Shown: positions 41,756 through 63,269, counted from the stretch's first letter. The stretch is DNA of 64,000 nucleotides from Lysobacter terrestris (GCF_014489475.1 NZ_CP060820.1:2496001-2560000), one strand, 5' to 3'. The notes: generated by a model not told the origin, from the sequence alone. Numbers and translations: made by a program.

Positions 41756-41815
41756 ATCTAACGCCTGAATTAAGCCGAGCCGCGAAGCGGCTTCGGCTTG
41801 AATGAATTGTTAGGC
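41756..41815 (-). repeat. attC 3
   Basis: 60 bp; R'' GCCTAAC, core GTTAGAT, which matches the ATCTAAC R'' of attC 2. Confidence 0.95.
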
Positions 41816-42007
41816 AGCGGGCGGAGGTGCTTGGCTGCCATCCGTTGGATCCGCCTGAGGCGTGATTGGTGGGTCATTGCAGCAAATGCACTCGGCGTCG
41901 TCCAATTGGATGGTCGGCTGCTCGGGTGGTGGCGGGAGGGATGGCCGTGTAGCAGCACATGCCGAAAGAATCAGTGCCGCCAGCAAGGTCATTACTCGAA
42001 TCGCCAT
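41810..42007 (-). CDS. Cassette 3: short Pro-rich lipoprotein
   Basis: 65 residues. Lipobox LAALILSAC, then a Pro-rich stretch and a Cys pair (CICC). The TAA stop is part of the attC 3 R'' box (GCCTAAC). Function unknown. Confidence 0.65.
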   Translation of the reverse strand: MAIRVMTLLAALILSACAATRPSLPPPPEQPTIQLDDAECICCNDPPITPQADPTDGSQAPPPAA

Positions 42008-42022
42008 GGAGCTTTCCCCGCG

Positions 42023-42082
42023 GCCTAACGCCTGAATTAAGCCGAGCCGCGAAGCGGCTTCGGCTTGAATGAATTGTTAGGG
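42023..42082 (-). repeat. attC 4
   Basis: 60 bp; R'' CCCTAAC, core GTTAGGC; standard stem. Confidence 0.95.
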
Positions 42083-45451: not shown

Positions 45452-45865
45452 CCGTGGCCCGGTGGACTCAAAGACCTTGGGGTGCGACGTGGAAAGGACA
45501 GACACGCACTCCTGATACGCCGCGATTATGAACTCAAAAGGCCGGGTGTCTTGATGCTTGGCATAGAAGTCGTCGCGGGTTGACTCGAGCTCAAACTAGC
45601 CGCCGGCACTAACCTCGAAAAGCCACGTTGATCCCAGTGCTTGTCTGTCAGAACTCATCCAGACGCCCGCGAGGTCAAGCTCGTGCAGCACCCGCAGCCC
45701 AACCACAGAATCAAACTCCACAACGAACCTACGGTCGGTGCGCTTGGAGAGCACCTCGATCTGTGTGGGCCTTTCGTCGCTCCAATGAACGCCGACAACC
45801 TTGATGGAGTCGTCAACGAAGGGCACAGGTATAGGAGAAATTGTAGACACGGGCCTAACGCTCAA
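45446..45865 (-). pseudogene. Cassette 11: soluble protein gene interrupted by in-frame TAG
   Basis: The frame from ATG 45865 meets TAG at 45596-45598 after 89 residues, but continues in the same frame for 48 more sensible codons (FELESTRDDFYAKHQ...) to a TAA inside the attC 11 R'' box, exactly where other cassette genes end. The intact protein would be about 139 residues. A recent nonsense mutation is the simplest reading; a sequencing error is possible. Function unknown. Confidence 0.75.
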
Positions 45866-45912
45866 GGTAACCCGAGCCGCGAAGCGGCTTCGGGTTGAGT
45901 GCGTAGTTATAC
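45853..45912 (-). repeat. attC 12 (second arm type)
   Basis: 60 bp; R'' GTATAAC, core GTTAGGC. Arms read CTCAAGGTAACCCG / CGGGTTGAGTGCGTA on the plus strand instead of the common sequence, with the same GAGCCGCGAAGCGGC stem tip. Confidence 0.92.
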
Positions 45913-46192
45913 GGGGCTGGCGGAGATGCCCGAGACATTGGAATGCAGCCCCCCCGATAGCTACTGGTGACCGTTACGGTATCAAGTTGCCGGACGGGGC
46001 TCTACCCGGAACCCGTGATGCGAGTAGTAACCGAAGGAGCAGGGCAATGGGAGCACCGCGAGCCGTCCGCTCAAGGCCGAAGCCGAGCGACCTTCCGATG
46101 GCGAGAGCGGCAAAGGCCACTTGCCGGAGCCGACTGCGAACGATGCGACAGGGTGGCCTAGATGCAGGCGCCGGCAATGCCGTCCCAGCACC
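45913..46192. other. Cassette 12: ORF-less cassette, family A
   Basis: 280 bp without a convincing gene; the short ORFs on both strands have no ribosome site and are not shared with relatives. Sequence is shared with cassettes 18, 29 and 36: GGGGCTGGC at one end, TACGGTATCAAGTTGCCGGA and CTCTACCCGGAAC inside, CCCAGCACC next to the GTATAAC box at the other. Candidate non-coding RNA or regulatory cassette. Confidence 0.7.
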
Positions 46193-46252
46193 GTATAACG
46201 CCTGAATTAAGCCGAGCCGCGAAGCGGCTTCGGCTTGAATGAATTGTTAGCC
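46193..46252 (-). repeat. attC 13
   Basis: 60 bp; R'' GGCTAAC, core GTTATAC matching attC 12 R''; standard stem. Confidence 0.94.
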
Positions 46253-46253
46253 C

Positions 46254-46616
46254 TCAGGGGGTTGCGGTGAACCACTGCTTGGTGGACTGAGACCGGAGCA
46301 GATGCGCCAGGATTGTGACAAAGGCTGCTCCCTCAACTATGTAAAGAACCATGGCCAATGAAGTGTACTGGCCATAGAACTCCGCGGTTGGCGGGAACAG
46401 GATGGTGATGAGTGGGACGAAGAACGAGAAAGACTGAACCCACCGCCAGGTCCAAGGTTTGCGACGCATGAAGAGAAGCAAGCAAGTGACTATGCCCAGG
46501 CAGATGAGGGGAGTCGTGTAACGAGCAAGTCCTGTCTCGTACAGCGGCGCGAGGCACGCCAAGGCAACGCCAGTTGCTATTGCGATGATGCACGCTATGC
46601 GGAGTAGGTTGGGCAT
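46254..46616 (-). CDS. Cassette 13: membrane protein, four segments
   Basis: 120 residues; segments at about 5-23, 35-50, 62-78 and 88-107. No family recognised. Confidence 0.7.
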   Translation of the reverse strand: MPNLLRIACIIAIATGVALACLAPLYETGLARYTTPLICLGIVTCLLLFMRRKPWTWRWVQSFSFFVPLITILFPPTAEFYGQYTSLAMVLYIVEGAAFVTILAHLLRSQSTKQWFTATP

Positions 46617-46619
46617 GAG

Positions 46620-46679
46620 GGCTAACGCCTGAATTAAGCCGAGCCGCGAAGCGGCTTCGGCTTGAATGAATTGTTAGGC
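46620..46679 (-). repeat. attC 14
   Basis: 60 bp; R'' GCCTAAC, core GTTAGCC matching attC 13 R''. Confidence 0.95.
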
Positions 46680-46836
46680 CGCGGCGGCGATGGACTGACC
46701 GACTGTGGCCTTGCCGAAAGACTGTACCGCGGGCCTTACCGAAAGCGCTCGATGCGTGGTGCCAAGCGAAGCGATGCACGTTGGACGACAGCGACCGGCC
46801 CGCGCTTGACCCACGACACTCCCCACTTCCAACGCG
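46680..46836. other. Cassette 14: ORF-less cassette, diverged family B
   Basis: 157 bp, the shortest cassette here. Shares GACTGACCGACTGTGGCC and CGAAAGACT with cassettes 24, 26 and 52, and a GATGCG...GAAGCGATGCA block. No gene seen. Confidence 0.65.
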
Positions 46837-46896
46837 GCCTAACGCCTGAATTAAGCCGAGCCGCGAAGCGGCTTCGGCTTGAATGAATTGTTAGGC
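46837..46896 (-). repeat. attC 15
   Basis: 60 bp, GCCTAAC / GTTAGGC, standard stem. Confidence 0.96.
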
Positions 46897-47274
46897 CGCA
46901 CGCCGCCACCTTGTGAGGGCGCCAATGCCGCCGCCAATAAGCCCAAAAATTGCACCTAAGACTATCGCGAATACTGCGGTATAGACCCAGACCGACGGTG
47001 TGAGAGTGACACCGGAAACGCGGCCAGGACCAATGGCCCAAGAGACGGCCCAGCCAAGCGTAACGTCGGTGATGCCCATTACCGCGCCGAGCAACAGTGC
47101 AGGCCAGAAGCCGAACATCCGAGCGGCGAAGTATGCGAACACGATGTAGAGGGCAGCAGACCCCAAGGTGGCATACGAGTAGGGAAAGCCAAGCCCCAAG
47201 GACGCAACAGATGCGACCGCATCAAATGCGATTACCGACAAGGACGAGAGTGCAAAGAACTTGAGGGCTTGCAA
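46891..47274 (-). CDS. Cassette 15: membrane protein, four segments
   Basis: 127 residues, Gly/Ala-rich segments at about 8-28, 36-52, 58-78 and 94-118. Stop in the attC 15 R'' box. Unknown. Confidence 0.7.
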   Translation of the reverse strand: MQALKFFALSSLSVIAFDAVASVASLGLGFPYSYATLGSAALYIVFAYFAARMFGFWPALLLGAVMGITDVTLGWAVSWAIGPGRVSGVTLTPSVWVYTAVFAIVLGAIFGLIGGGIGALTRWRRAA

Positions 47275-47290
47275 GAAGGTCTCCTGTGCG

Positions 47291-47350
47291 GCCTAACGCC
47301 TGAATTAAGCCGAGCCGCGAAGCGGCTTCGGCTTGAATGAATTGTTAGGC
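47291..47350 (-). repeat. attC 16
   Basis: 60 bp, GCCTAAC / GTTAGGC, standard stem. Confidence 0.96.
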
Positions 47351-47680
47351 CGCAGCGCCATACAACGCAGACCCGATGGTAAGAGACAGGACAACGACTA
47401 GTGTTGTCGTGAACCAGACTACTGCGACCCAGGGCTTGCCTAAGAGCGCTTTTCTTGCACGATCTAGGTCGGACACCAGCAGCGGATTTGCCGCGTCCTC
47501 TTGGCGCAGGCGGTGCCAACCAAGCGCGAAGAACACAAACCCGGACGCGTAGAGGATCCATAGCATAAGAACGGCAGTATCAATCGGGGACGTGGCCCAC
47601 GTGATCAAGGTCGGCGCGATTGCCAATAGCGCCATTGCATACAGGAAACGCCCCCACGAAAGTCGCCAACGCTTAGACAT
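47345..47680 (-). CDS. Cassette 16: membrane protein, three segments
   Basis: 111 residues; segments at about 12-29, 36-54 and 84-106; a basic N-terminus (MSKRWRLSWGR). Ends in the attC R'' box. Confidence 0.7.
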   Translation of the reverse strand: MSKRWRLSWGRFLYAMALLAIAPTLITWATSPIDTAVLMLWILYASGFVFFALGWHRLRQEDAANPLLVSDLDRARKALLGKPWVAVVWFTTTLVVVLSLTIGSALYGAAA

Positions 47681-47693
47681 TGCCCCTCCTGCG

Positions 47694-47753
47694 GCCTAAC
47701 GCCTGAATTAAGCCGAGCCGCGAAGCGGCTTCGGCTTGAATGAATTGTTAGGC
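47694..47753 (-). repeat. attC 17
   Basis: 60 bp, GCCTAAC / GTTAGGC, standard stem. Confidence 0.96.
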
Positions 47754-48170
47754 CTCATTGTAGACCTGCAGCAGAGATGGCTCTTGGGAGCTAGCAGCAA
47801 TATGCACAAGTACCGTCCGCTGTAGCTCGACCTCGCCGTGATCAGCATGGTGCTTTGCGAAAGAGAAGACCTCGGATAGTGATTCGTTCTCGTGCCATGA
47901 GGTCATGACAAATTGGTCATCCGGGATGTCGCCGTAATCAAAAGCTCGAAGGTTTGCCATATCTACGGAATCGTCCCAGGAGCTGCAGCCATAGCCCCAA
48001 GCCATCATAAACAGGCAGCCGGAACGGACGAGCCAATCGCTCACCTCATCTTGCCAGTCCGTCGGGACGGCTTGCTCCGCTATTACTACGGCGCGGAATG
48101 GCGATCGGGCACCCAAGTCTGGTGGGGTTGAGCCGCGAGCGAGATGTATGTAAGTGGGAGTGCTTGGCAT
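47748..48170 (-). CDS. Cassette 17: soluble acidic protein of unknown function
   Basis: 140 residues, no signal. Phrases such as SGCLFMMAWGYGCSSWDDSVD and FVMTSWHENESLSEVFSFAKHHA look like a conserved uncharacterised family seen in integrons and scattered genomes; possibly DUF7684. Ends in the attC R'' box. Confidence 0.75.
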   Translation of the reverse strand: MPSTPTYIHLARGSTPPDLGARSPFRAVVIAEQAVPTDWQDEVSDWLVRSGCLFMMAWGYGCSSWDDSVDMANLRAFDYGDIPDDQFVMTSWHENESLSEVFSFAKHHADHGEVELQRTVLVHIAASSQEPSLLQVYNEA

Positions 48171-48173
48171 GAG

Positions 48174-48233
48174 GCCTAACGCCTGAGTTAAGCCGAGCTG
48201 CGAAGCAGCTTCGGCTTGAACGAATTGTTATGC
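48174..48233 (-). repeat. attC 18
   Basis: 60 bp; R'' GCATAAC, core GTTAGGC. Stem tip GCTGCGAAGCAGC: both sides changed together, so pairing is kept. Confidence 0.94.
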
Positions 48234-48450
48234 GGGGCTGGCCAAGATGCCGGCGAACTGAAGCGAAGGCGGCCGCTCCCCGCGGTTGGCCGATACGGTA
48301 TCAAGTTGCCGGACGGGGCTCTACCCGGAACCTGTGGCGCGTGATGTACCCGAAGCAGGGGGCTTTGCCAGGATGCTGCCCAGAGCCGACTCTCAACGAT
48401 CGCGTGGGCTTGCCGGAGGAATGGCCAGCAGAGATGCCAATCCCAGCACC
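48234..48450. other. Cassette 18: ORF-less cassette, family A
   Basis: 217 bp; closest to cassette 36. Carries the family block CGATACGGTATCAAGTTGCC and GACTCTCAACGATCGCG, and ends ATCCCAGCACC. No credible gene on either strand. Confidence 0.7.
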
Positions 48451-48510
48451 GTATAACGCCTGAATTAAGCCGAGCCGCGAAGCGGCTTCGGCTTGAATGA
48501 ATTGTTAGGG
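48451..48510 (-). repeat. attC 19
   Basis: 60 bp; R'' CCCTAAC, core GTTATAC. Confidence 0.94.
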
Positions 48511-49005
48511 CGCACACCGATGGCCCGCGAACTCCGTGAGCCTTTTAGTGAGCGACCATCCGTCCTGCCATTGGATGTTGAGTATCACCCAGTTGCCATG
48601 TCTATTGGCTAGAAGGACCGTGTCAGTCCACTGCAGAGTGTCATAGCGCAGGGTGGCCGAAACACGAGCGACGTCGCCGTAGAGCTGTTGCGAGGTCGTC
48701 AAGAGCTCCTGCGCACCGTCTGGGATCTGAATAAAAATGTCCTGATCAATCATATGAGGCTTCATATCAGGAGGGGTAATGCGAGCACAGGCCCTTTCAT
48801 ATGCAACAAATGCAGTGAGGGCTTTAGCCAGCTCTTGGCCCAGCAATGGCAGCACCGGAGAGAACCTGGGCGCTGCAATCTCTTGTTTGGTTGGGTGCAG
48901 CGCCCTGCGATAGAACTCGCTCACGATATCGGCGGGCTGTTGGCCGTGCACAGTGGCCGGGACAGTCAAAGCTGTGACAAGCAACCAGTGGCGAAGATGT
49001 GTCAT
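48505..49005 (-). CDS. Cassette 19: secreted protein of unknown function
   Basis: 166 residues; signal peptide WLLVTALTVPATVHG. The mature domain (ADIVSEFYRRALHP... NWVILNIQWQDG) has an NTF2-like/DUF3828-like layout. Ends in the attC R'' box. Confidence 0.75.
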   Translation of the reverse strand: MTHLRHWLLVTALTVPATVHGQQPADIVSEFYRRALHPTKQEIAAPRFSPVLPLLGQELAKALTAFVAYERACARITPPDMKPHMIDQDIFIQIPDGAQELLTTSQQLYGDVARVSATLRYDTLQWTDTVLLANRHGNWVILNIQWQDGWSLTKRLTEFAGHRCAP

Positions 49006-49010
49006 GTGCG

Positions 49011-49070
49011 CCCTAACGCCTGAATTAACCGGAGCCGCGAAGCGGCTTCCGGTTGAATGAATTGTTAGGC
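49011..49070 (-). repeat. attC 20
   Basis: 60 bp; R'' GCCTAAC, core GTTAGGG. Stem arms TTAACCGGAG / CTTCCGGTTGAA: compensatory change from the common form. Confidence 0.94.
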
Positions 49071-49074
49071 CGCG

Positions 49075-49443
49075 TCACCGGGCGACCCAAACGACGACGG
49101 CAAGTATCACCAAAGCTATGGCGCCAAGCCAACGTGGATGCACGGTAATGGTTTGCCCGGACGGCTCGGGAACAATCCCTTGCTCCAGACTGGCAATAAT
49201 CTCACCCAGAGCCTCATCTTGCTCTTTCCGGTACTCGGGATCTTTGACCCGAATGTCAGCGTCGTGCAGGTAGAACATGACGCGCGGTGGCAACTGCACA
49301 TCCGGGAATGTGGAGTGTTGCCACTCAACGAACCGACGCCCAGCCGCGTACCAACTGTCTAAACCGTCGCGGGATACAGGAGAGGACTGCTGCAGCCGCC
49401 GGAGCTCTTGAGCAATCTCTTTGAGTTGCGATGGATTTGCCAT
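49075..49443 (-). CDS. Cassette 20: C-tail-anchored protein, copy 1
   Basis: 122 residues: a soluble N-terminal part (LKEIAQELRRLQQ, RRFVEWQHSTFPD) and one C-terminal membrane anchor (about 106-120). Differs from cassette 38 at only four residues (R25H, Q88R, Q97R, A110T), so one is a recent copy of the other. Function unknown. Confidence 0.8.
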   Translation of the reverse strand: MANPSQLKEIAQELRRLQQSSPVSRDGLDSWYAAGRRFVEWQHSTFPDVQLPPRVMFYLHDADIRVKDPEYRKEQDEALGEIIASLEQGIVPEPSGQTITVHPRWLGAIALVILAVVVWVAR

Positions 49444-49448
49444 GAGCG

Positions 49449-49508
49449 GCCTAACGCCTGAATTAAGCCGAGCCGCGAAGCGGCTTCGGCTTGAATGAAT
49501 TGTTAGGC
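49449..49508 (-). repeat. attC 21
   Basis: 60 bp, GCCTAAC / GTTAGGC, standard stem. Confidence 0.96.
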
Positions 49509-49769
49509 CGCAGTGCCGCGCAGCTTGCGGCGCAAAATTGTGCCAGCAATGAACATTGCGACCCCAAGAATGAGAAGAAGGTAAGGCAAATAATCCGGAC
49601 CTTGTGACTCAGCCGGAGCCATCCGAAAGAACTGATGGGAGGCTTGGCCGTTGTTGGGAAGCATGAAGGAGATCGGGAGTTGATCCCGGAGTAGTGGCGT
49701 GTCGATTAGTCCGGTAAGCGCGACTAACGATCCGAGAACGGTAATCAAATTTGCGATAACTTTCTTCAT
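49503..49769 (-). CDS. Cassette 21: small membrane protein, two segments
   Basis: 88 residues; segments at about 5-22 and 62-80 separated by a polar loop likely outside the membrane. Ends in the attC R'' box. Confidence 0.7.
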   Translation of the reverse strand: MKKVIANLITVLGSLVALTGLIDTPLLRDQLPISFMLPNNGQASHQFFRMAPAESQGPDYLPYLLLILGVAMFIAGTILRRKLRGTAA

Positions 49770-49772
49770 GCG

Positions 49773-49832
49773 GCCTAACGCCTGAGTTAAGCCGAGCCGC
49801 GAAGCGGCTTCGGCTTGAATGAATTGTTAGGC
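49773..49832 (-). repeat. attC 22
   Basis: 60 bp, GCCTAAC / GTTAGGC; GAGTTAAGCC variant on the plus strand. Confidence 0.95.
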
Positions 49833-49841
49833 CGCGCCCGA

Positions 49842-50159
49842 TTACCCTTGGGCATGCAGCCTAGCAATGAGCAGGATTACTCCAGTGTTCAACACCATCG
49901 TGATGGGGAACAACCATCTGACTGACCCCAGCCAACTTGATGCACCCATGCCCCCGCACACCTCAGACATTTCGCGGGTGTAAAGGTTATTGATGATGCC
50001 TAGTGCCTGGCCCTTGCCGAAGGTCGTGGCCCGTCCGATGCGACTCCAGTAATCAGGAGCCTTCTGCTCCAACTGGGCTCGTAGTCTCGAAACGGCAAAT
50101 ATATAGACGATCGTCAAGGCGAACGCGAAGAAGAACAGAAACAAGAACAAGACAGCCAT
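49842..50159 (-). CDS. Cassette 22: membrane protein, two segments
   Basis: 105 residues; Phe-rich N-terminal segment (FLFLFFFAFALTIVYIFAV) and a C-terminal one (about 83-100), with a soluble loop between. Unknown. Confidence 0.7.
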   Translation of the reverse strand: MAVLFLFLFFFAFALTIVYIFAVSRLRAQLEQKAPDYWSRIGRATTFGKGQALGIINNLYTREMSEVCGGMGASSWLGSVRWLFPITMVLNTGVILLIARLHAQG

Positions 50160-50181
50160 ACCTACCTCGGTGTTTCGCGCG

Positions 50182-50241
50182 GCCTAACGCCTGAATTAAG
50201 CCTAGCCGCGAAGCGGCTTCGGCTTGAATGAATTGTTAGGG
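50182..50241 (-). repeat. attC 23
   Basis: 60 bp; R'' CCCTAAC, core GTTAGGC; one stem mismatch (AAGCCTAGCC on the plus strand). Confidence 0.94.
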
Positions 50242-50634
50242 GCCACCGACGACCTCAACGGACCGAGCCAAAACCCAGCCGGACATTCCGTAAGACTGAT
50301 CTAGCTCGTAGGCCCTAACACTCTGAGAAATGCAGAACGAAGTGGCTGCGTCTAAGGATGCCGCCCAAGGGCCAGGCCAGCCACACAGTCGGTGCCCCTC
50401 GGAAAGGTTAGCCCATTCTCTATGTAAGAGCTGCTCGGCAGGGCTCTCTGCAAGGCTCAGCACAACGGAGGGAATGAGTGGGTAGAGGAACTGGTGCGCA
50501 ACGACGCCGCGAAACACGAGGCGGAAGGTGTCAGGCGCAGAGCCCGTGCCGGGCGCCAACGTTAGCACCAGCTCCGACGTGCGCGAATCTACCGAGTAAG
50601 CGATTACCTCGCTGTCGTGAACTCCGGGAAACAT
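50236..50634 (-). CDS. Cassette 23: soluble protein of unknown function
   Basis: 132 residues without signal. The opening HDSEVIAYSVDSRTSELVLTL is a beta-hairpin pattern seen in several small immunity-like or DUF proteins. Ends in the attC R'' box. Confidence 0.75.
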   Translation of the reverse strand: MFPGVHDSEVIAYSVDSRTSELVLTLAPGTGSAPDTFRLVFRGVVAHQFLYPLIPSVVLSLAESPAEQLLHREWANLSEGHRLCGWPGPWAASLDAATSFCISQSVRAYELDQSYGMSGWVLARSVEVVGGP

Positions 50635-50642
50635 CCTATGGC

Positions 50643-50702
50643 CCCTAACGCCTGAATTAAGCCGAGCCGCGAAGCGGCTTCGGCTTGAATGAATTGTTAG
50701 GC
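50643..50702 (-). repeat. attC 24
   Basis: 60 bp; R'' GCCTAAC, core GTTAGGG matching attC 23 R''. Confidence 0.95.
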
Positions 50703-50904
50703 CGCAGCCAACCCGCGAACTGACCGACTGTGGCCTTACCGAAAGACTATCAGCGGAACGGCCCGTGAGCCGATGACAGAACCGCTACCCCGACGCGGCG
50801 CTTTACCCGGAACGCTTGATGCGCGATGCCGGACGAAGCGATGCAAGCACAATCCCGAAAACCCCGCCGAAGCCAAAGCCCGAGATGGAACAGGTTTTGG
50901 TGCG
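50703..50904. other. Cassette 24: ORF-less cassette, family B copy 1
   Basis: 202 bp, near-identical to cassettes 26 and 52: CGCAGCCAACCCG start, GACTGACCGACTGTGGCC, CTTTACCCGGA, GATGCGCGATGCCGGAC, GATGGAACAGG end. No gene on either strand. Confidence 0.75.
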
Positions 50905-50964
50905 GCCTAACGCCTGAATTAAGCCGAGCCGCGAAGCGGCTTCGGCTTGAATGAATTGTTAGGC
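50905..50964 (-). repeat. attC 25
   Basis: 60 bp, GCCTAAC / GTTAGGC, standard stem. Confidence 0.96.
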
Positions 50965-50970
50965 CGCAGC

Positions 50971-51330
50971 CTAGATGATGTGTGCGCCATCCAGCCCGCC
51001 TACGTAGATCTGCATGGACTCGTACTGCTCCGAAGTGTCGAGCAGGAGCAACTCTAGCCCGTTGGCAAGCCGAAGGCTAAGGCGCTTTGGATCTAGTACG
51101 GCAAAGGCCAGTAAGGCCGTGTTGAGCACTTGATAGAACGCCGGATCAGGCCAGCCGCCGGCCTCCCAGATTCCGGCCGGGTCGCCGCCGCGCCATATCT
51201 CTACCTTGGACTGAATTGCAAATGCGACGGTGCCGAAGGAGAACTGAAGATCGTAGGGGCCAACGCAAAGTTGCGTGGTCTCTTGTCCCAGCGCGGGAGA
51301 AAGATCTAGGTCAGCAGGGAATCCGTACAT
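50971..51330 (-). CDS. Cassette 25: DUF6188-like soluble protein
   Basis: 119 residues. The opening MYGFPADLDLSPALGQETTQ and the following beta-rich LCVGPYDLQFSF recall DUF6188 proteins, a small uncharacterised family. TAG stop 7 bp before attC 25. Confidence 0.75.
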   Translation of the reverse strand: MYGFPADLDLSPALGQETTQLCVGPYDLQFSFGTVAFAIQSKVEIWRGGDPAGIWEAGGWPDPAFYQVLNTALLAFAVLDPKRLSLRLANGLELLLLDTSEQYESMQIYVGGLDGAHII

Positions 51331-51333
51331 GCG

Positions 51334-51393
51334 GCCTAACGCCTGAATTAAGCCGAGCCGCGAAGCGGCTTCGGCTTGAATGAATTGTTAGGC
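51334..51393 (-). repeat. attC 26
   Basis: 60 bp, GCCTAAC / GTTAGGC, standard stem. Confidence 0.96.
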
Positions 51394-51595
51394 CGCAGCC
51401 AACCCGTGAACTGACCGACTGTGGCCTTACCGAAAGACTATCAGCGGAACGGCCCGTGAGCCGATGACAGAACCGCTACCCCGACACGGCGCTTTACCCG
51501 GAATGCTTGATGCGCGATGCCGGACGGAGCCATGCAATTACAACCCCGAGAAACCAGCCGAAGCCAAAGCCCAAGATGGAACAGGCTTTGGTGCG
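51394..51595. other. Cassette 26: ORF-less cassette, family B copy 2
   Basis: 202 bp, the same length as copy 1 and differing from it at scattered single bases, mostly in the last third. It is one cassette away from copy 1. Confidence 0.75.
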
Positions 51596-51665
51596 GCCTA
51601 ACGCCTGAATTAAGCCGAAAACAATCGCGTAGCGATTGGTTTTCGGCTTGAATGAATTGTTAGGC
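51596..51665 (-). repeat. attC 27 (70-bp variant stem)
   Basis: Boxes GCCTAAC / GTTAGGC as usual, but the stem tip is GAAAACAATCGC-GTA-GCGATTGGTTTTC, unrelated to the common one. Shared only with attC 34. Confidence 0.93.
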
Positions 51666-52025
51666 CTATGCCGCGAAAAGACTAAGCATTGCGATGACAC
51701 ACTTGCCACGGACAAGAACGTATCCATCTGGCAACGGCAGGCCAGGGCCGACCATGGGATTGTCCAGTTCGCGTAGTTTATCCCCAGGCTGCATCAAGGC
51801 TTTCATATGATTCCATTGGCGGTTTCCGTAAGCGAATGGAACCTGAGGGACAGCAGGATTTCGCGCCGCGAAAGCCGTCCCAATAGCCTCAAGCTCGTCG
51901 ACTGAGTAGGAGCGACCCGTAACGCGAAATCCGCCATCCATAGACAGGCAGGAGGTGTTCCTCGGCGGCGTAGCCGCGCAAGACGCTGAGAGAGTTGCAA
52001 GCAAGATTGCGAGGATCTTGAGCAT
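51666..52025 (-). CDS. Cassette 27: lipoprotein of unknown function
   Basis: 119 residues from MLKILAIL (longer frames run into attC 28). Lipobox LLATLSASC. The body has SYSVDELEAIGTAFAARN. Ends one codon from the attC. Confidence 0.7.
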   Translation of the reverse strand: MLKILAILLATLSASCAATPPRNTSCLSMDGGFRVTGRSYSVDELEAIGTAFAARNPAVPQVPFAYGNRQWNHMKALMQPGDKLRELDNPMVGPGLPLPDGYVLVRGKCVIAMLSLFAA

Positions 52026-52027
52026 AG

Positions 52028-52087
52028 GCCTAACGCCTGAATTAAGCCGAGCCGCGAAGCGGCTTCGGCTTGAATGAATTGTTAGGC
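52028..52087 (-). repeat. attC 28
   Basis: 60 bp, GCCTAAC / GTTAGGC, standard stem. Confidence 0.96.
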
Positions 52088-52097
52088 ACCGCACCGG

Positions 52098-52397
52098 TTA
52101 CAAGCAGTCACCATAACTGCAGGCTGTCAGTAGGCCGGTAAACAGTAGTGCCACGTAAAGAAGCATACCAAGAACAATCATGCTTACGATCCGCGCCCCC
52201 ATGGTCTTAAAGGGCCACATGGCAATGGCAAGAATGCCAATTGCTAAGCCGGTAAAGCGCCCGATCTCCGTCCAAGGTCGATGCAACGATATTGGACTAG
52301 TCCAGTACGCCGAGGCTGTGGCGAGCCATACGACGAAGAACGCGAGGAGGATTCCGATCGCTGTGTACGCTGCCCGATGTGCCGTTGCGCTCGCCAT
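52098..52397 (-). CDS. Cassette 28: membrane protein, three segments
   Basis: 99 residues; segments at about 12-30, 46-62 and 70-92; ends with a CSYGDC Cys pair. Unknown. Confidence 0.7.
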   Translation of the reverse strand: MASATAHRAAYTAIGILLAFFVVWLATASAYWTSPISLHRPWTEIGRFTGLAIGILAIAMWPFKTMGARIVSMIVLGMLLYVALLFTGLLTACSYGDCL

Positions 52398-52401
52398 AGG
52401 T

Positions 52402-52461
52402 GCCTAACGCTCAAGGTAACCCGAGCCGCGAAGCGGCTTCGGGTTGAGTGCGTAGTTATGC
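52402..52461 (-). repeat. attC 29 (second arm type)
   Basis: 60 bp; R'' GCATAAC, core GTTAGGC; CTCAAGGTAACCCG / CGGGTTGAGTGCGTA arms as in attC 12. Confidence 0.92.
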
Positions 52462-52737
52462 GGGGCTGGCGACGATGCTGGCATGGCCTGGCCGAAGCGC
52501 TCCGAATAACTCGATGGGTCGATACGGTACCAGCTTGCCGGACCACGCTGTACCCGGACGCCCAAAGGCGAAGTGGCTCCGGAGCCGCAAGCGAGTCGAG
52601 TGCGATGGGCTGTCAGGTCTAGGCCGGAGCGGGGGAGTTGCCGACGCCTTGTCACTGAAGGCAACTTGCCGGAGCTAGGCCTCAACGATGCGGGGTTGTT
52701 GCCCAGGAGCGAGCGACGGCAATGCAGACCCAGCACC
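52462..52737. other. Cassette 29: ORF-less cassette, family A
   Basis: 276 bp. Begins GGGGCTGGCGACGATGCTGG, contains CGATACGGTACCAGCTTGCC and CTGTACCCGGA, ends ACCCAGCACC. Carries several CCGGAG motifs on the plus strand. No credible gene. Confidence 0.7.
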
Positions 52738-52797
52738 GTATAACGCCTGAATTAAGCCGAGCCGCGAAGCGGCTTCGGCTTGAATGAATTGTTAGGC
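52738..52797 (-). repeat. attC 30
   Basis: 60 bp; R'' GCCTAAC, core GTTATAC. Confidence 0.94.
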
Positions 52798-52819
52798 CGC
52801 AGCCCCGACGCCACACCAA

Positions 52820-53128
52820 TCATTGCTGCCACTTCGGGAGGTTGCAATGACGGCACATGCGGGCGAACGGCCAGTAGCTGAAAGTTTGGAAGAAGAAGAA
52901 CTCTTTACAGCGGGGACAACGAAACCGTTGGAGATGGAACCCGGCGAACGCAAAGGTAGCCATCCAAATGAAGCCAAGGACCAGGCCCACCCAATCGGGC
53001 GCATGCAGAAGGGAAAGCGCAACCACTAGCGCTGCGACCGCGCCAAATCCACCAAGCCATGCCAAAAAGAACCACAGAACACGCCGACGGTAGTCTTTCC
53101 AAGCTAAGGCGTACGAGTAGTTTGTCAT
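52820..53128 (-). CDS. Cassette 30: membrane protein with C-terminal zinc ribbon
   Basis: 102 residues: two membrane segments (about 17-42 and 47-65), then FRCPRCKEFFF ... RMCRHCNLP, a CxxC-CxxC zinc ribbon. Function unknown. Confidence 0.78.
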   Translation of the reverse strand: MTNYSYALAWKDYRRRVLWFFLAWLGGFGAVAALVVALSLLHAPDWVGLVLGFIWMATFAFAGFHLQRFRCPRCKEFFFFQTFSYWPFARMCRHCNLPKWQQ

Positions 53129-53131
53129 GCG

Positions 53132-53191
53132 GCCTAACGCCTGAATTAAGCCGAGCCGCGAAGCGGCTTCGGCTTGAATGAATTGTTAGGC
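53132..53191 (-). repeat. attC 31
   Basis: 60 bp, GCCTAAC / GTTAGGC, standard stem. Confidence 0.96.
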
Positions 53192-53197
53192 CCTTGC

Positions 53198-53560
53198 CTA
53201 GTCAACGCAGGGCCACTGCTTTAGACGACCATTCTCAACGGAAAAGCCGCAGTTGGGCTTGCTGGGCCGGTAGGCCGTGCAGATGCCGCGAAAAACACCA
53301 CTAGCTGGCACCTCCAAGACGCGCACACCCGACCCTTGCTCTTTCCAGTGCTCCGACGCTAGCTCGCAGTAGCCTTGGCACTGTGAGCTCGAAGTGCAGG
53401 CCCGCCCAGCATCTCCAGATGGCCATTGGCAGACCTCAATGAGCTGAGTGACCCGCATCAACGAGCCTCCAGACTTGGCGCAGTCGGCCGCATCAATGGG
53501 GTGCGGGGTGGCGCAGCCAGCTAAAGAGAGGATTACCAGAAGCCAGGTGAGTCGGTTCAA
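53198..53560 (-). CDS. Cassette 31: Cys-rich lipoprotein
   Basis: 120 residues; lipobox LLVILSLAGC. Nine further Cys in the mature part (for example CTSSSQCQGYC) suggest several disulphides in the periplasm. Unknown. Confidence 0.75.
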   Translation of the reverse strand: MNRLTWLLVILSLAGCATPHPIDAADCAKSGGSLMRVTQLIEVCQWPSGDAGRACTSSSQCQGYCELASEHWKEQGSGVRVLEVPASGVFRGICTAYRPSKPNCGFSVENGRLKQWPCVD

Positions 53561-53562
53561 GG

Positions 53563-53622
53563 GCCTAACGCCTGAATTAAGCCGAGCCGCGAAGCGGCTT
53601 CGGCTTGAATGAATTGTTAGGC
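53563..53622 (-). repeat. attC 32
   Basis: 60 bp, GCCTAAC / GTTAGGC, standard stem. Confidence 0.96.
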
Positions 53623-54119
53623 CACATGCCCAGGTGCCTCCAGTGTGAGCATTTGTCGGCCGGGTCTATGTATTGCGTACGCCAAGAACCCATGAGCGGA
53701 TCCCAAGCTCGCTGGCCCATCAAGATGCGTCCGTCGAGAAGTGAGAAGGTGACCGAGTAGTAGTCATTGGTTGGACGGCGTGGGTCGTATGCGCCACTGT
53801 AAAAAGTCAGCGTGGCGTAAGGAGGAGTATCGCCGCGGGTGTGGTACCAAGAGCCACTCGCCTGGATATGGGTGATGTGCTTTAGTTTGCTGACAATGCA
53901 CTCATTGAGCACGATATTAAAACGCGGTGAAGACACCGCTACTCGCGTCAGTGTCGCAGGATTTTTCGGTGCGCGAGAGATGTGCACTTTGACGGGACCG
54001 TAGGTCGCGGGGACTACGCCTAGGGTGCCATCTGGAGCGATCGGCAGGATGCGATCCTTATGAGCAGAGGCTGCTCCCGCCATGAGCCAGAGAACTAGGA
54101 TTGCGGCAATCTTTCTCAT
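53577..54119 (-). CDS. Cassette 32: secreted protein with attC-encoded tail
   Basis: 180 residues; signal peptide AAILVLWLMAGAASA. The frame passes through most of attC 32, which supplies the last residues NNSFKPKPLRGSA before TAA at 53577-53579. The unrelated cassette 41 gene ends with the same tail. Unknown function. Confidence 0.72.
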   Translation of the reverse strand: MRKIAAILVLWLMAGAASAHKDRILPIAPDGTLGVVPATYGPVKVHISRAPKNPATLTRVAVSSPRFNIVLNECIVSKLKHITHIQASGSWYHTRGDTPPYATLTFYSGAYDPRRPTNDYYSVTFSLLDGRILMGQRAWDPLMGSWRTQYIDPADKCSHWRHLGMWPNNSFKPKPLRGSA

Positions 54120-54122
54120 GTG

Positions 54123-54182
54123 GCCTAACGCCTGAGTTAAGCCGAGCCGCGAAGCGGCTTCGGCTTGAACGAATTGTTAGGC
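54123..54182 (-). repeat. attC 33
   Basis: 60 bp, GCCTAAC / GTTAGGC; GAGTTAAGCC and GAACGAATT variants on the plus strand. Confidence 0.95.
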
Positions 54183-54506
54183 GGCCGCAACTGCAAGAAC
54201 ACTTGAACCAACTCGCTTGAACTCACAAGCCCAGACGCCGCCTTGTCTTTTGCCGGCCGAAGCCGGGCAGGGCGAGTTTGCCAGAAGGTAAGCCGCGCGC
54301 GTAGCGGGCGGCGTGAGATGCGCGGGCTTTGGACAACTGCAACGGCGATAATGCAGCCGTGCGCGTCGCGAGTAACCAACAGGACCGCAATGCTGGGAGC
54401 GGACGGCGTGATGGAGCGAGAGTGCTGAAGTGCGGGCCGGCTTACGCGACAGACCTGCAAGTAGCGATGGAGTAGGCGCCTTACCCGCCGAAGAAGGCTC
54501 TTTGCC
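54183..54506. other. Cassette 33: ORF-less cassette, unrelated to families A and B
   Basis: 324 bp. A minus-strand frame exists but starts with TTG without ribosome site, is Arg-rich and runs into the attC, so I treat the cassette as non-coding. GC-rich, with CCGAAG/GCCGG-type motifs as in the other ORF-less cassettes. Confidence 0.55.
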
Positions 54507-54576
54507 GCCTAACGCCTGAATTAAGCCGAAAACAATCGCGTAGCGATTGGTTTTCGGCTTGAATGAATTGTTAGGG
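54507..54576 (-). repeat. attC 34 (70-bp variant stem)
   Basis: R'' CCCTAAC, core GTTAGGC; the same alternative stem tip as attC 27 (ACAATCGC-GTA-GCGATTGG). Confidence 0.93.
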
Positions 54577-54855
54577 CCCGTGCCCGGCGCCCCAAAGGGA
54601 AGTATCCCAGAGCGACAAGTAGCTTGTCTCTTGCGACCGTAGAGGCAGCAAAGGAGTGATGTCGATCAGCCAGCGCCGGAATATCACGAGCAGTTGCAGC
54701 ACGGTATCTGACTCCACCGGGCCATCTAACGTCAGCTCAAGGGTAGTGCCGGCACCGCGAATGTCTTTGTATCCGGGCAATGAGGCCAGCCAACGAAAGA
54801 AGCAGTCCTCATCTGCCGCAGCAAAGAATGTTGGACCTTCAAAGGAAATGATCAC
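54571..54855 (-). CDS. Cassette 34: soluble protein of unknown function
   Basis: 94 residues; opening IISFEGPTFFAAADEDCFFRWL suggests a small alpha/beta fold. Stop lies in the attC R'' box. No family recognised. Confidence 0.7.
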   Translation of the reverse strand: MIISFEGPTFFAAADEDCFFRWLASLPGYKDIRGAGTTLELTLDGPVESDTVLQLLVIFRRWLIDITPLLPLRSQETSYLSLWDTSLWGAGHGP

Positions 54856-54858
54856 GGG

Positions 54859-54918
54859 GCCTAACGCCTGAATTAAGCCGAGCCGCGAAGCGGCTTCGGC
54901 TTGAATGAATTGTTAGGG
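54859..54918 (-). repeat. attC 35
   Basis: 60 bp; R'' CCCTAAC, core GTTAGGC (does not match attC 34 R'', unlike most neighbours). Confidence 0.95.
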
Positions 54919-55164
54919 CTGGCGCCGAGCTGCTGCAGTGCCCAATGCCACGCCAATGGCAAAGCCAACGGAACCATAGAGCACCCCGTGGCCACTACCG
55001 GCACCGATCGCCGTGCCGACACCACCGCCTATAAGGCCAAAACCGATCACACGCCATGTGGGTTTCGCGGGGTTAGCGAGAACGCGCTCAGTTTGACGAG
55101 TCTGCGCCGCTTTGGTGGGTGCCATCAGTGCGTCGGACGCGGCATTGGCTTGATCTTTGTCCAT
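54913..55164 (-). CDS. Cassette 35: glycine-zipper-like membrane protein
   Basis: 83 residues; polar N-terminal half, then Gly-rich membrane stretch (GFGLIGGGVGTAIGAGSG, GSVGFAIGVALGT). The pattern resembles glycine-zipper proteins. Ends in the attC R'' box. Confidence 0.7.
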   Translation of the reverse strand: MDKDQANAASDALMAPTKAAQTRQTERVLANPAKPTWRVIGFGLIGGGVGTAIGAGSGHGVLYGSVGFAIGVALGTAAARRQP

Positions 55165-55182
55165 TACAGTCTCTCCAAACAG

Positions 55183-55242
55183 GCCTAACGCCTGAGTTAA
55201 GCCGAGTTGCGAAGCAACTTCGGCTTGAACGAATTGTTATGC
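55183..55242 (-). repeat. attC 36
   Basis: 60 bp; R'' GCATAAC, core GTTAGGC. Stem tip GTTGCGAAGCAAC keeps pairing by paired changes. Confidence 0.94.
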
Positions 55243-55460
55243 GGGGCTGGCCAAGATGCTGCCGACTTAAAGCGAAGGAGGCCGTACCCCACGGTTGACC
55301 GATACGGTAGCAAGTTGCCGGACGAGGCTCTACCCGGAACCCGTGGCGCGTGATGTAACCGAAGGGGAGGGAATTACCCGGACGCTATGGATGGCCGACT
55401 CTCAACGATCGCGGAAGCCAGGCCGAAGGAACGGCCCGCAGCAATGCCGATCCCAGCACC
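55243..55460. other. Cassette 36: ORF-less cassette, family A
   Basis: 218 bp, the closest relative of cassette 18 (same opening GGGGCTGGCCAAGATGC, ACTCTCAACGATCGCG, ending CGATCCCAGCACC). No credible gene. Confidence 0.7.
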
Positions 55461-55520
55461 GTATAACGCCTGAGTTAAGTGGAGCCGCGAAGCGGCTTCC
55501 ACTTGAACGAATTGTTAGGC
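55461..55520 (-). repeat. attC 37
   Basis: 60 bp; R'' GCCTAAC, core GTTATAC. Arms TTAAGTGGAG / CTTCCACTTGAA: compensatory change. Confidence 0.93.
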
Positions 55521-59431: not shown

Positions 59432-59491
59432 GGCTAACGCCTGAATTAAGCCGAGCCGCGAAGCGGCTTCGGCTTGAATGAATTGTTAGAC
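59432..59491 (-). repeat. attC 45
   Basis: 60 bp; R'' GTCTAAC, core GTTAGCC matching attC 44 R''. Confidence 0.95.
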
Positions 59492-60031
59492 CTGCAACCC
59501 AAGAACCAGCGCGGCGATGGAAGCGAGCAGAAGAATGGTTGAAATGATAGCTAGCAACCATTGAATCTGAGTCACGCGAGCGGTGTTTCTGGCCAGGTCC
59601 GGATCTTTGAAGACTTTCCGAGCGACCCACTTAAGAAAGCGGGTAGTTGGCAGCGTTGATTTTTCAATCTCGGCTTGAACAATTGAAAAATCCAAATCTT
59701 CGTATGTGACGCTTGCCTTCTCCGCTAGTTCAGCGGCTTTTTCTACCGCCTCCCCGCTGCCGACGACGACAGATGAGATGTATTTTTGCAGCACTGCTGG
59801 GAATGCGGCAGCTAAGAAGAGCAAGGCGGCGCAACCAACCGATGAGCTTGAGATGTAGGGCTGCAACTCGCCAAGATTGCTTACGACCAAGCCAAGTGCT
59901 GCGCCTGTTCCAGCCAGCAGCCAACTTAAGAACGAATCAACTACCGCCGAAGATTTTGCCGAAGACAGGTAGAGCAGCTGGCGCGCCACGTGCCTTGATG
60001 CTTCTTCTTTGAGATCGCTGGAATCTGTCAT
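59486..60031 (-). CDS. Cassette 45: membrane protein with cytoplasmic helical region
   Basis: 181 residues; two segments near the N-terminus (about 33-53 and 65-88), a ~70-residue charged helical stretch (EAVEKAAELAEKASVTYEDLD), and a third segment (about 158-178). The layout recalls effector membrane domains of some defence systems, but no family is recognised. Confidence 0.72.
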   Translation of the reverse strand: MTDSSDLKEEASRHVARQLLYLSSAKSSAVVDSFLSWLLAGTGAALGLVVSNLGELQPYISSSSVGCAALLFLAAAFPAVLQKYISSVVVGSGEAVEKAAELAEKASVTYEDLDFSIVQAEIEKSTLPTTRFLKWVARKVFKDPDLARNTARVTQIQWLLAIISTILLLASIAALVLGLQV

Positions 60032-60036
60032 TGCAG

Positions 60037-60096
60037 GTCTAACGCCTGAATTAAGCCGAGCCGCGAAGCGGCTTCGGCTTGAATGAATTGTTAGGT
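60037..60096 (-). repeat. attC 46
   Basis: 60 bp; R'' ACCTAAC, core GTTAGAC matching attC 45 R''. Confidence 0.95.
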
Positions 60097-60549: not shown

Positions 60550-60609
60550 ACCTAACGCCTGAATTAAGCCGAGCCGCGAAGCGGCTTCGGCTTGAATGAA
60601 TTGTTAGGC
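60550..60609 (-). repeat. attC 47
   Basis: 60 bp; R'' GCCTAAC, core GTTAGGT matching attC 46 R''. Confidence 0.95.
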
Positions 60610-60994
60610 GGTGTCTGGCCCGGGAAACTCAGACCGAACCGCCGACCCGACAACACCTTACCCGAAGGTCAACGCCCTTGACGGTCGCACTCTCCGGTGG
60701 CCGCCGACCAGCCACGCGCGGAGCGGGTGGCGGACCGAAGGCCCGGAGCAAACGGGAAGTGAGCGCCTGCCATGTGAGCCACGCGCGTAAGCGGGTGGCG
60801 TGGTTGCCCGTGATGCACGGGCGAATGCCGGAGCGGAGCCCAACGAATGATCGCAGCGACGACGAGCGACAGGGCCGGAGCGGCCGATCAACTCAACGTG
60901 CGGGGCTGCCAACGAGGACTCACCGGAGCCGGCCGATGACGTCGCCGGGAACGTTCCGAAGAAGCATGCGAGGAAATAGAACCTCCCGCAGCAC
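60610..60994. other. Cassette 47: ORF-less cassette, GC-rich
   Basis: 385 bp, the longest ORF-less cassette. A plus-strand frame exists but is Arg/Ser-rich, lacks a ribosome site and opposes the array, so it is not accepted. Contains paired motifs CACGCGCGGAGCGGGTGGCG / CACGCGCGTAAGCGGGTGGCG (an internal near-repeat, about 60713 and 60780) and several CCGGAGC motifs. Not clearly in family A or B. Confidence 0.55.
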
Positions 60995-61054
60995 CGCCTA
61001 ACGCCTGAATTAAGCCGAGCCGCGAAGCGGCTTCGGCTTGAATGAATTGTTAGC
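60995..61054 (-). repeat. attC 48
   Basis: 60 bp; R'' GGCTAAC, core GTTAGGC. Confidence 0.95.
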
Positions 61055-62601: not shown

Positions 62602-62661
62602 GCCTAACGCCTGAATTAAGCCGAGCCGCGAAGCGGCTTCGGCTTGAATGAATTGTTAGGC
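62602..62661 (-). repeat. attC 52
   Basis: 60 bp, GCCTAAC / GTTAGGC, standard stem. Confidence 0.96.
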
Positions 62662-62863
62662 CGCAGCCAACCCGAGAACTGACCGACTGTGGCCTTACCG
62701 AAAGACTATCAGCGGAACGGCCCGTAAGCCGATGACAGAACAGCTTCCCCGACGCGGCGCTTTACCCGGAGCGCTTGATGCGCGATGCCGGACGAAGCGA
62801 TGCAGACACAACCCCGAAAACCCTGCCGAAGCCAAAGCCCGAGATGGAACAGGTTTTGGTGCG
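62662..62863. other. Cassette 52: ORF-less cassette, family B copy 3
   Basis: 202 bp, the same length as cassettes 24 and 26 and nearly identical to cassette 24. It lies 11-12 kb from those two copies. Confidence 0.75.
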
Positions 62864-62923
62864 GCCTAACGCCTGAATTAAGCCGAGCCGCGAAGCGGCT
62901 TCGGCTTGAATGAGGAGTTATAC
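62864..62923 (-). repeat. attC 53
   Basis: 60 bp; R'' GTATAAC, core GTTAGGC; the R'' side reads TGAGGAGTTATAC on the plus strand instead of TGAATTGTTAGGC. Confidence 0.92.
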
Positions 62924-63209
62924 GGGAGCGGCTGCAGCAACCGGTTGCCAGACCTTATGCCGGAGCCTCCCCGAACCCTCCGATGGCAAAAGGCTATCAC
63001 CTGTCGGGGCCCATGGGCTTTGGCGAGAACCCTTGGCGCGAGGTGTAACCGGAGCCATCGCTAGCCGGAGCACGTGGGGCCTCAGCGCCGAGGGCGAAGC
63101 GAGAGTCTGGCCGGTTGCGGGAAGAGTAGGGAGGGCTGGCCGGAGCCGATGCTCCACGGTGCCGAAGTGTTGCCGAAGGAACAGCAACGAGAGTGCTCAA
63201 CCCGATGCC
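62924..63209. other. Cassette 53: ORF-less cassette, possibly diverged family A
   Basis: 286 bp. Same GTATAAC/GTTATAC boxes as family A and many GCCGGAGC / ACCGGAGCC motifs on the plus strand, but the family core block is not clear. Ends CCCGATGCC. No credible gene. Confidence 0.55.
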
Positions 63210-63269
63210 GTATAACGCCTGAATTAAGCCGAGCCGCGAAGCGGCTTCGGCTTGAATGAATTGTTAGGC
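63210..63269 (-). repeat. attC 54
   Basis: 60 bp; R'' GCCTAAC, core GTTATAC matching attC 53 R''. Confidence 0.94.

Follow-up and report, generated by a model that had tools for sequence, protein, structure and literature searches.

Gene-less cassettes in the integron array

The window, the whole 64,000-nucleotide stretch of DNA that was analysed (C1:2496001-2560000), belongs to a complete 3.15-Mb genome (G000) and covers part of an integron whose ~98 attC cassettes lie on the minus strand between ~40.9 kb and ~83.3 kb, the array ending 19 kb past the window. The integrase, a tyrosine recombinase matching Pfam PF00589 and PF13495, is encoded on the plus strand at 83926-84954, 20 kb outside the window. 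Complementary R′′/R′ boxes are present at both cassette ends and the array adjoins intI, the signature of attC-bounded mobile cassettes. The cassettes considered below are as follows.

45859-46198, minus strand: gene-less cassette c88 (earlier number 12), defined by attC boundaries and family alignment; body 45913-46198 plus attC; longest sense ORF 69 aa
48180-48456, minus strand: gene-less cassette c82 (earlier 18), defined by attC boundaries; 82% identical to c64
52408-52743, minus strand: gene-less cassette c71 (earlier 29), defined by attC boundaries; 98% identical to its copy c23 beyond the window
55189-55466, minus strand: gene-less cassette c64 (earlier 36), defined by attC boundaries and BLAST
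62870-63215, minus strand: gene-less cassette c47 (earlier 53), a diverged member placed by family alignments; matches profile R1 (see below) at E=8.2e-18, although c47 is among the R1 source sequences
50649-50910, minus strand: gene-less family B cassette c76, one of five near-identical 208-nt bodies; carries TGATAGTCT
51340-51601, minus strand: gene-less family B cassette c74, assigned by BLAST clustering and core motif
62608-62869, minus strand: gene-less family B cassette c48, assigned by BLAST clustering and core motif
46626-46842, minus strand: gene-less cassette c86, a family B relative by BLAST clustering
60556-61001, minus strand: gene-less family C cassette c53, tied to family A by a superfamily profile (nhmmer E=2e-12)

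As the original prediction held, c88, c82, c71, and c64, together with c47, are ORF-less, homologous cassettes. Each has its own attC, all are on the minus strand, and their pairwise similarity is far above chance (c64/c82, E=1.75e-60; c64/c88, E=2e-21; c82/c88, E=9e-20). In the available portion of a Vibrio study, a gene-less cassette is one with no annotated gene and no ORF longer than 210 bp (PMC11014356). ORFs exceeding 210 bp are absent from c88, c82, and c64; c71 contains a 76-aa ORF on the antisense strand, and c47 has sense and antisense ORFs of 89 and 101 aa. Length varies, as had been proposed, with the range of 217-280 bp given for the first four cassettes shifting to 223-286 nt when bodies are measured without attC (c88, 286; c82, 223; c71, 282; c64, 224 nt; c47 measures 292 nt). 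Further family A members of the same array (c42a, c23, and c13) lie beyond the window, and BLAST links family A, the five family B cassettes, family C (c24, c39, and c53), c86, and c3/c42b into a single cluster of 18 ORF-less cassettes.

Several other features of the array were observed. Cassette c42 (L011:4859-5556, window coordinate 64859-65556) consists of two gene-less units joined over a degenerate attC (TAACAATTCGCTCATGCCG...). A palindrome, GCCRCCCGC-TTAC/TCC-GCGCGYGGC, is found in gene-less c53, c67 (54129-54512), c39, and c21, the last two beyond the window; it occurs twice in c53 and c39, and R/Y changes in its stem are paired. Gene cassettes are also duplicated, with c97 and c5 as well as c83 and c25 100% identical and c80 and c62 96% identical (41762-42028, 47700-48179, and 49017-49454 in the window).

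The plus-strand blocks attributed to these cassettes, GGGGCTGGC, TACGGTA..CAAGTTGCCGGA, CTCTACCCGGA, and CCCAGCACC, were all found, with minor deviations: TACGGTACCAGCTTGCCGGA and CTGTACCCGGA occur in c71, and c47 is the most diverged. The distinctive attC types are likewise real, one (ACTACGCACTCAACCC) being shared by c88 and c71 and another (GCATAACAATTCGTTCAAGCC) by c82 and c64. The terminal blocks GGGGCTGGC and CCCAGCACC are reverse complements except for one base; cassettes start with TTATACGGTGCTGG and end with CCAGCCCCGTATAA (or GCATAA), with c47 again more diverged. The ends are conserved because the attC stem formed by the R′ and R′′ boxes extends into the cassette body, and the two conserved ends are the arms of this stem reaching past the boxes. 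Array-wide, pairing beyond the boxes averages 3.84 nt, compared to 1.40 ± 0.12 nt after ends were re-paired within the same R′ type. The conserved ends are thus present as predicted but are not peculiar to family A, as many gene cassettes have them too. Extended stems on gene cassettes include TTAGACCTGCAA / TTGCAGGTCTAA at 59438-60042 (from a comparison that covered this array, over window positions 40860-64000 and L011). A limited literature search found no account of extended attC arms.

A non-coding family in Xanthomonadaceae integrons

Single-sequence BLAST against 100 relatives returned chance matches only, and a profile was therefore needed to reach other genera. Profile R1 was built from sequence only, using the 3′ 134 nt of family bodies. 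In G000, every R1 match below E=0.005 falls inside the array; in other genomes, R1 detected clustered copies sitting in attC cassettes (eight in G232, and copies in genus g19, which is presumably Xanthomonas). R1 matches in three genomes (G068, G307, and G374) and a BLAST match in G087 had no attC sites around them and were discarded. With a g19 cassette as DNA query, 43 of 397 family genomes from eight genera matched; a whole-body profile reaches families A and C of this array, and matches to a pattern scan include Xanthomonas, Stenotrophomonas, and Luteimonas. Judged by these homologies, the family of gene-less cassettes occurs in integrons of at least eight Xanthomonadaceae genera. Searches of plasmid and phage sequences gave no match, and a class-wide search with a cassette of another genome gave 0 of 369, although this sample had no positive control and says little about absence.

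Among 52 unique full-length homologues, an automatic attC pattern lies 3′ of 48 and a G|TTA boundary 5′ of 49. One gene-less element elsewhere (L072, in G360) has its attC hairpin deleted and no normal attC behind it. Alignment of the four original cassettes, c47, and related-genome copies, which had been suggested as a check, gave homology extending to other genera, and a set of 56 non-redundant full-length homologues (effective number, 25) retains islands of conservation despite a mean pairwise identity of 57%. The most conserved island is GGTCGGCTCCGG; like three GCTTCG islands related to one another, it is located upstream of the core element described below. The shared sequence is therefore more than random GC-rich similarity and is kept far outside this array, in line with the proposal that non-coding conservation here implies function.

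Two readings of what the bodies encode can be set against these alignments. First, antisense ORFs of up to 101 aa in some members might suggest decayed protein-coding genes, the outcome that would have removed the case for a non-coding function. Among pairs of the 56 homologues with >60% identity, however, 1310 of 1470 indels are single-base and thus almost all out of frame, and the Xanthomonas set lacks 3-base periodicity, with minor-base fractions of 0.105, 0.103, and 0.102 at the three codon positions. In all six frames, amino-acid and synonymous scores stay within ~1.5 sd of a column-permutation null and conservative substitution is absent; the largest ORFs fall below the cut-off of every Pfam and NCBIfam family. 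A coding origin was rejected on this six-frame test, and decayed genes are scarcely credible.

Second, the cassettes might encode a small or structured RNA. Their non-coding sequence is conserved, Xanthomonas has an integron-encoded RNA (sRNA-Xcc1), and folds of subfamilies are somewhat more stable than shuffled sequences (sense z -3.8 for g18; antisense z -5.5 for this array's set). In this array's subset, however, fold support comes largely from the terminal stem, which is the attC arms. The proposed check for covariation gave a consensus folding energy of 0 on both strands (RNAalifold, 56 sequences; a value that depends on alignment quality), TTTTT occurs in just 2 of the 56 homologues, and relaxing the Rfam threshold to E<=1 gave no match for the Xanthomonas copy. 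Rfam searches of the array at gathering and relaxed thresholds returned nothing credible. Like these cassettes, sRNA-Xcc1 (Rfam RF02221) is non-coding sequence in Xanthomonadaceae integron cassettes, but it is unrelated in sequence, RF02221 has no match in the window, and in L088 it is placed elsewhere and on the opposite strand. We consider an RNA product very unlikely.

A different Rfam RNA, sX15, was observed at L088:996-1155 (121 bits; G055, matching Xanthomonas massiliensis), bordering an attC array; immediately downstream of it is an IS110-family transposase (PF01548 and PF02371). It may be the bridge-RNA-like non-coding end of an IS110-type element.

A conserved sense-strand core and its decayed copies

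On the sense strand, 52 of the 56 homologues share TGNYANNNT at a single site of the alignment, compared to 0.9% of other 17-nt windows; on the antisense strand, no window exceeds 2%. The element lies approximately 70-80 nt before attC. Its hexamer varies by lineage (CACACT, 26; CATGCT, 10; TAGTAT, 6; TACCGT, 5; and single others; CATCAT is also used), with the TG, the A at position 2, and the T at position 6 unchanged across lineages. These are the positions that matter most in an extended -10 element. The Xanthomonas form is the 13-mer TGTGGCACACTCG, whose hexamer, CACACT, resembles a -10 only weakly, and the form in this array is TGnTACCGT or TGATAGyCT. The Xanthomonas form and that of this array and g18 differ in register by 2 nt, and the core match is thus functional rather than strictly positional. 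By alignment, the extended -10-like cores in the window are the following.

45976-45984, minus strand: core TGATACCGT in c88
48295-48303, minus strand: core TGATACCGT in c82
52524-52532, minus strand: core TGGTACCGT in c71
55304-55312, minus strand: core TGCTACCGT in c64
62991-62999, minus strand: core TGATAGCCT in c47

A stricter motif, TGNTANNNT, is found in 13 of 20 ORF-less cassettes of this array vs 6 of 78 gene cassettes (p=2e-7; 8 of 15 vs 6 of 76 with copies collapsed, p=1e-4) and never antisense, although it is absent from c86, c3, and three cassettes of family C. We saw no -35 element, and a sigma-70 and terminator scan gave results at or below shuffled expectation, with no sigma-70 consensus match in these cassettes. 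Upstream regions from 400 kb each of this genome and a Xanthomonas genome yielded no clear motif for a clade -10 matrix. In the same amounts of sequence, TGNYANNNT was not clearly overrepresented ahead of ordinary genes and is therefore not a general promoter consensus of the clade.

Copies outside normal cassettes bear on how the core has been kept. A decayed cassette copy is present in four species of a sister genus, g7, between an ORF that we take, at three loci, to be rnt (RNase T) and a gene for a 153-aa protein. The relic corresponds to the 3′ half of the cassette (nhmmer E=2e-16 in L099 and 3e-7 in L094, the latter also with a decayed attC; in L126, the core alone is recognisable), and the 13-mer TGTGGCACACTCG stands 141-151 nt before the ATG of the 153-aa gene. 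In an alignment of 373 upstream columns from the four species, with pairwise identities of 51-60%, invariance extends furthest at TGTGGCACACTCG (13), AGGAGAA (7), and CGCATG (6); all other invariant runs are 3 or shorter, and the shuffled maximum is 4. The only long invariant runs besides the 13-mer are thus the ribosome-binding site and start codon. Genome-wide, the 13-mer occurs at two sites each in G559 and G237, one an attC-flanked cassette and the other the relic. The 153-aa gene is present in 29 of 35 g19 genomes, where its upstream region is different; its product belongs to a conserved family of Xanthomonas relatives (L124-L147) with no Pfam match. Comparison of these loci suggests that the chromosomal gene has apparently taken over a cassette promoter. 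In G288 (L205), the element has become fused to a homologue of the c68 gene of this array, most of the attC between the two having been lost, leaving a single element-gene-attC unit.

Could the cassettes instead be selfish or neutral passengers, copied and spread by IntI and conserved merely as recent copies? Several arrays do contain copies that are nearly identical or in tandem (in this array, five of family B at 92-98% identity; adjacent copies in L025, L030, and L064). Recent copying sits poorly, however, with sharp islands kept between genera at ~57% mean identity, and the relics weaken the idea further, because they have lost a working attC yet keep the core, and conservation there cannot stem from recent movement. 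We regard this explanation as unlikely.

The cassettes could also act in cis through protein binding of another kind than that of a sigma-70 promoter, offering sites to a regulator, to an architectural protein, or to the integrase, with the 13-mer core as one such site. All 13 bases are kept in the four relics, beyond those critical to a -10; in the genomes searched, the 13-mer is limited to cassettes and the relic, making it more specific than a generic -10; and several upstream GC-rich islands are equally or more conserved. Against this, lineages other than Xanthomonas alter most core bases and retain just the TGnYAnnnT pattern, and the position of the relic before a ribosome-binding site and start codon suits a promoter. 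We consider this alternative rather unlikely.

Candidate mobile promoters

We lean toward the reading that the gene-less integron cassettes found across the Xanthomonadaceae act as mobile promoters. Each would consist of a ~220-290-nt non-coding body and an attC, with the extended -10-like element on the sense strand of the body. The core presumably starts transcription, which would begin just past the element, cross attC, and enter the cassette behind it. A gene-less cassette could thereby express genes that lie at a distance from the main promoter of the array; the upstream conserved islands may modulate this transcription. As attC fixes orientation, the promoter would always be aimed at the next gene. 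A mobile promoter would be expected to show what is seen here: an orientation set by attC, a position ahead of the following gene, survival of the element once mobility is lost, and, in G288, fusion to a gene. Among the functions listed in the original prediction, a small RNA fared poorly, given no superfamily-wide fold, few T-tracts, and no Rfam family, and a promoter or cis-element is favored. A broader proposal is that one ancient mobile cis-regulatory module, comprising a promoter and its own upstream regulator sites, spread through Xanthomonadaceae integrons, placed many cassettes under common control, and also became the promoter of a chromosomal gene; this is conceivable but rather doubtful.

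Related cassettes have been described. In the available portion of the Vibrio study, gene-less cassettes proved mostly to be sense promoters by reporter assays, RT-qPCR, and 5′-RACE (PMC11014356). As here, those cassettes carry attC, are scattered in large sedentary chromosomal integrons (the superintegrons of Vibrionaceae), and are proposed sense-strand drivers, but that portion reports no shared core and ties start sites tentatively to AT-richness (PMC11014356). The sequence here is, by contrast, GC-rich and conserved in at least eight genera, and promoter activity, measured in Vibrio, is for this family an inference. ORF-less cassettes of promoter type have also been found in Treponema, from an oral metagenome (PMC6557892), a different lineage that we liken by description, not by sequence. 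For Xanthomonas integrons, the available portion of another report notes a recurrent "empty" ORF-less cassette, present in several copies per array, and suggests promoter activity (PMC12444791). That cassette, matched by description rather than sequence, is very probably the Xanthomonas branch of the present family; the same portion contains no sequence analysis, conserved core, relic, or spread beyond the genus (PMC12444791). Gene-less promoter cassettes in Vibrio and Treponema and the "empty" Xanthomonas cassette were thus already known; our analysis adds the cross-genus family, the conserved core, and the relic.

How genes far from the single cassette promoter of an integron are expressed is a standing question. 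Because the family can be aligned and its core pinpointed, the promoter question can be put to a direct test by point mutation, and a promoter role, if true, would explain the persistence of "empty" cassettes.
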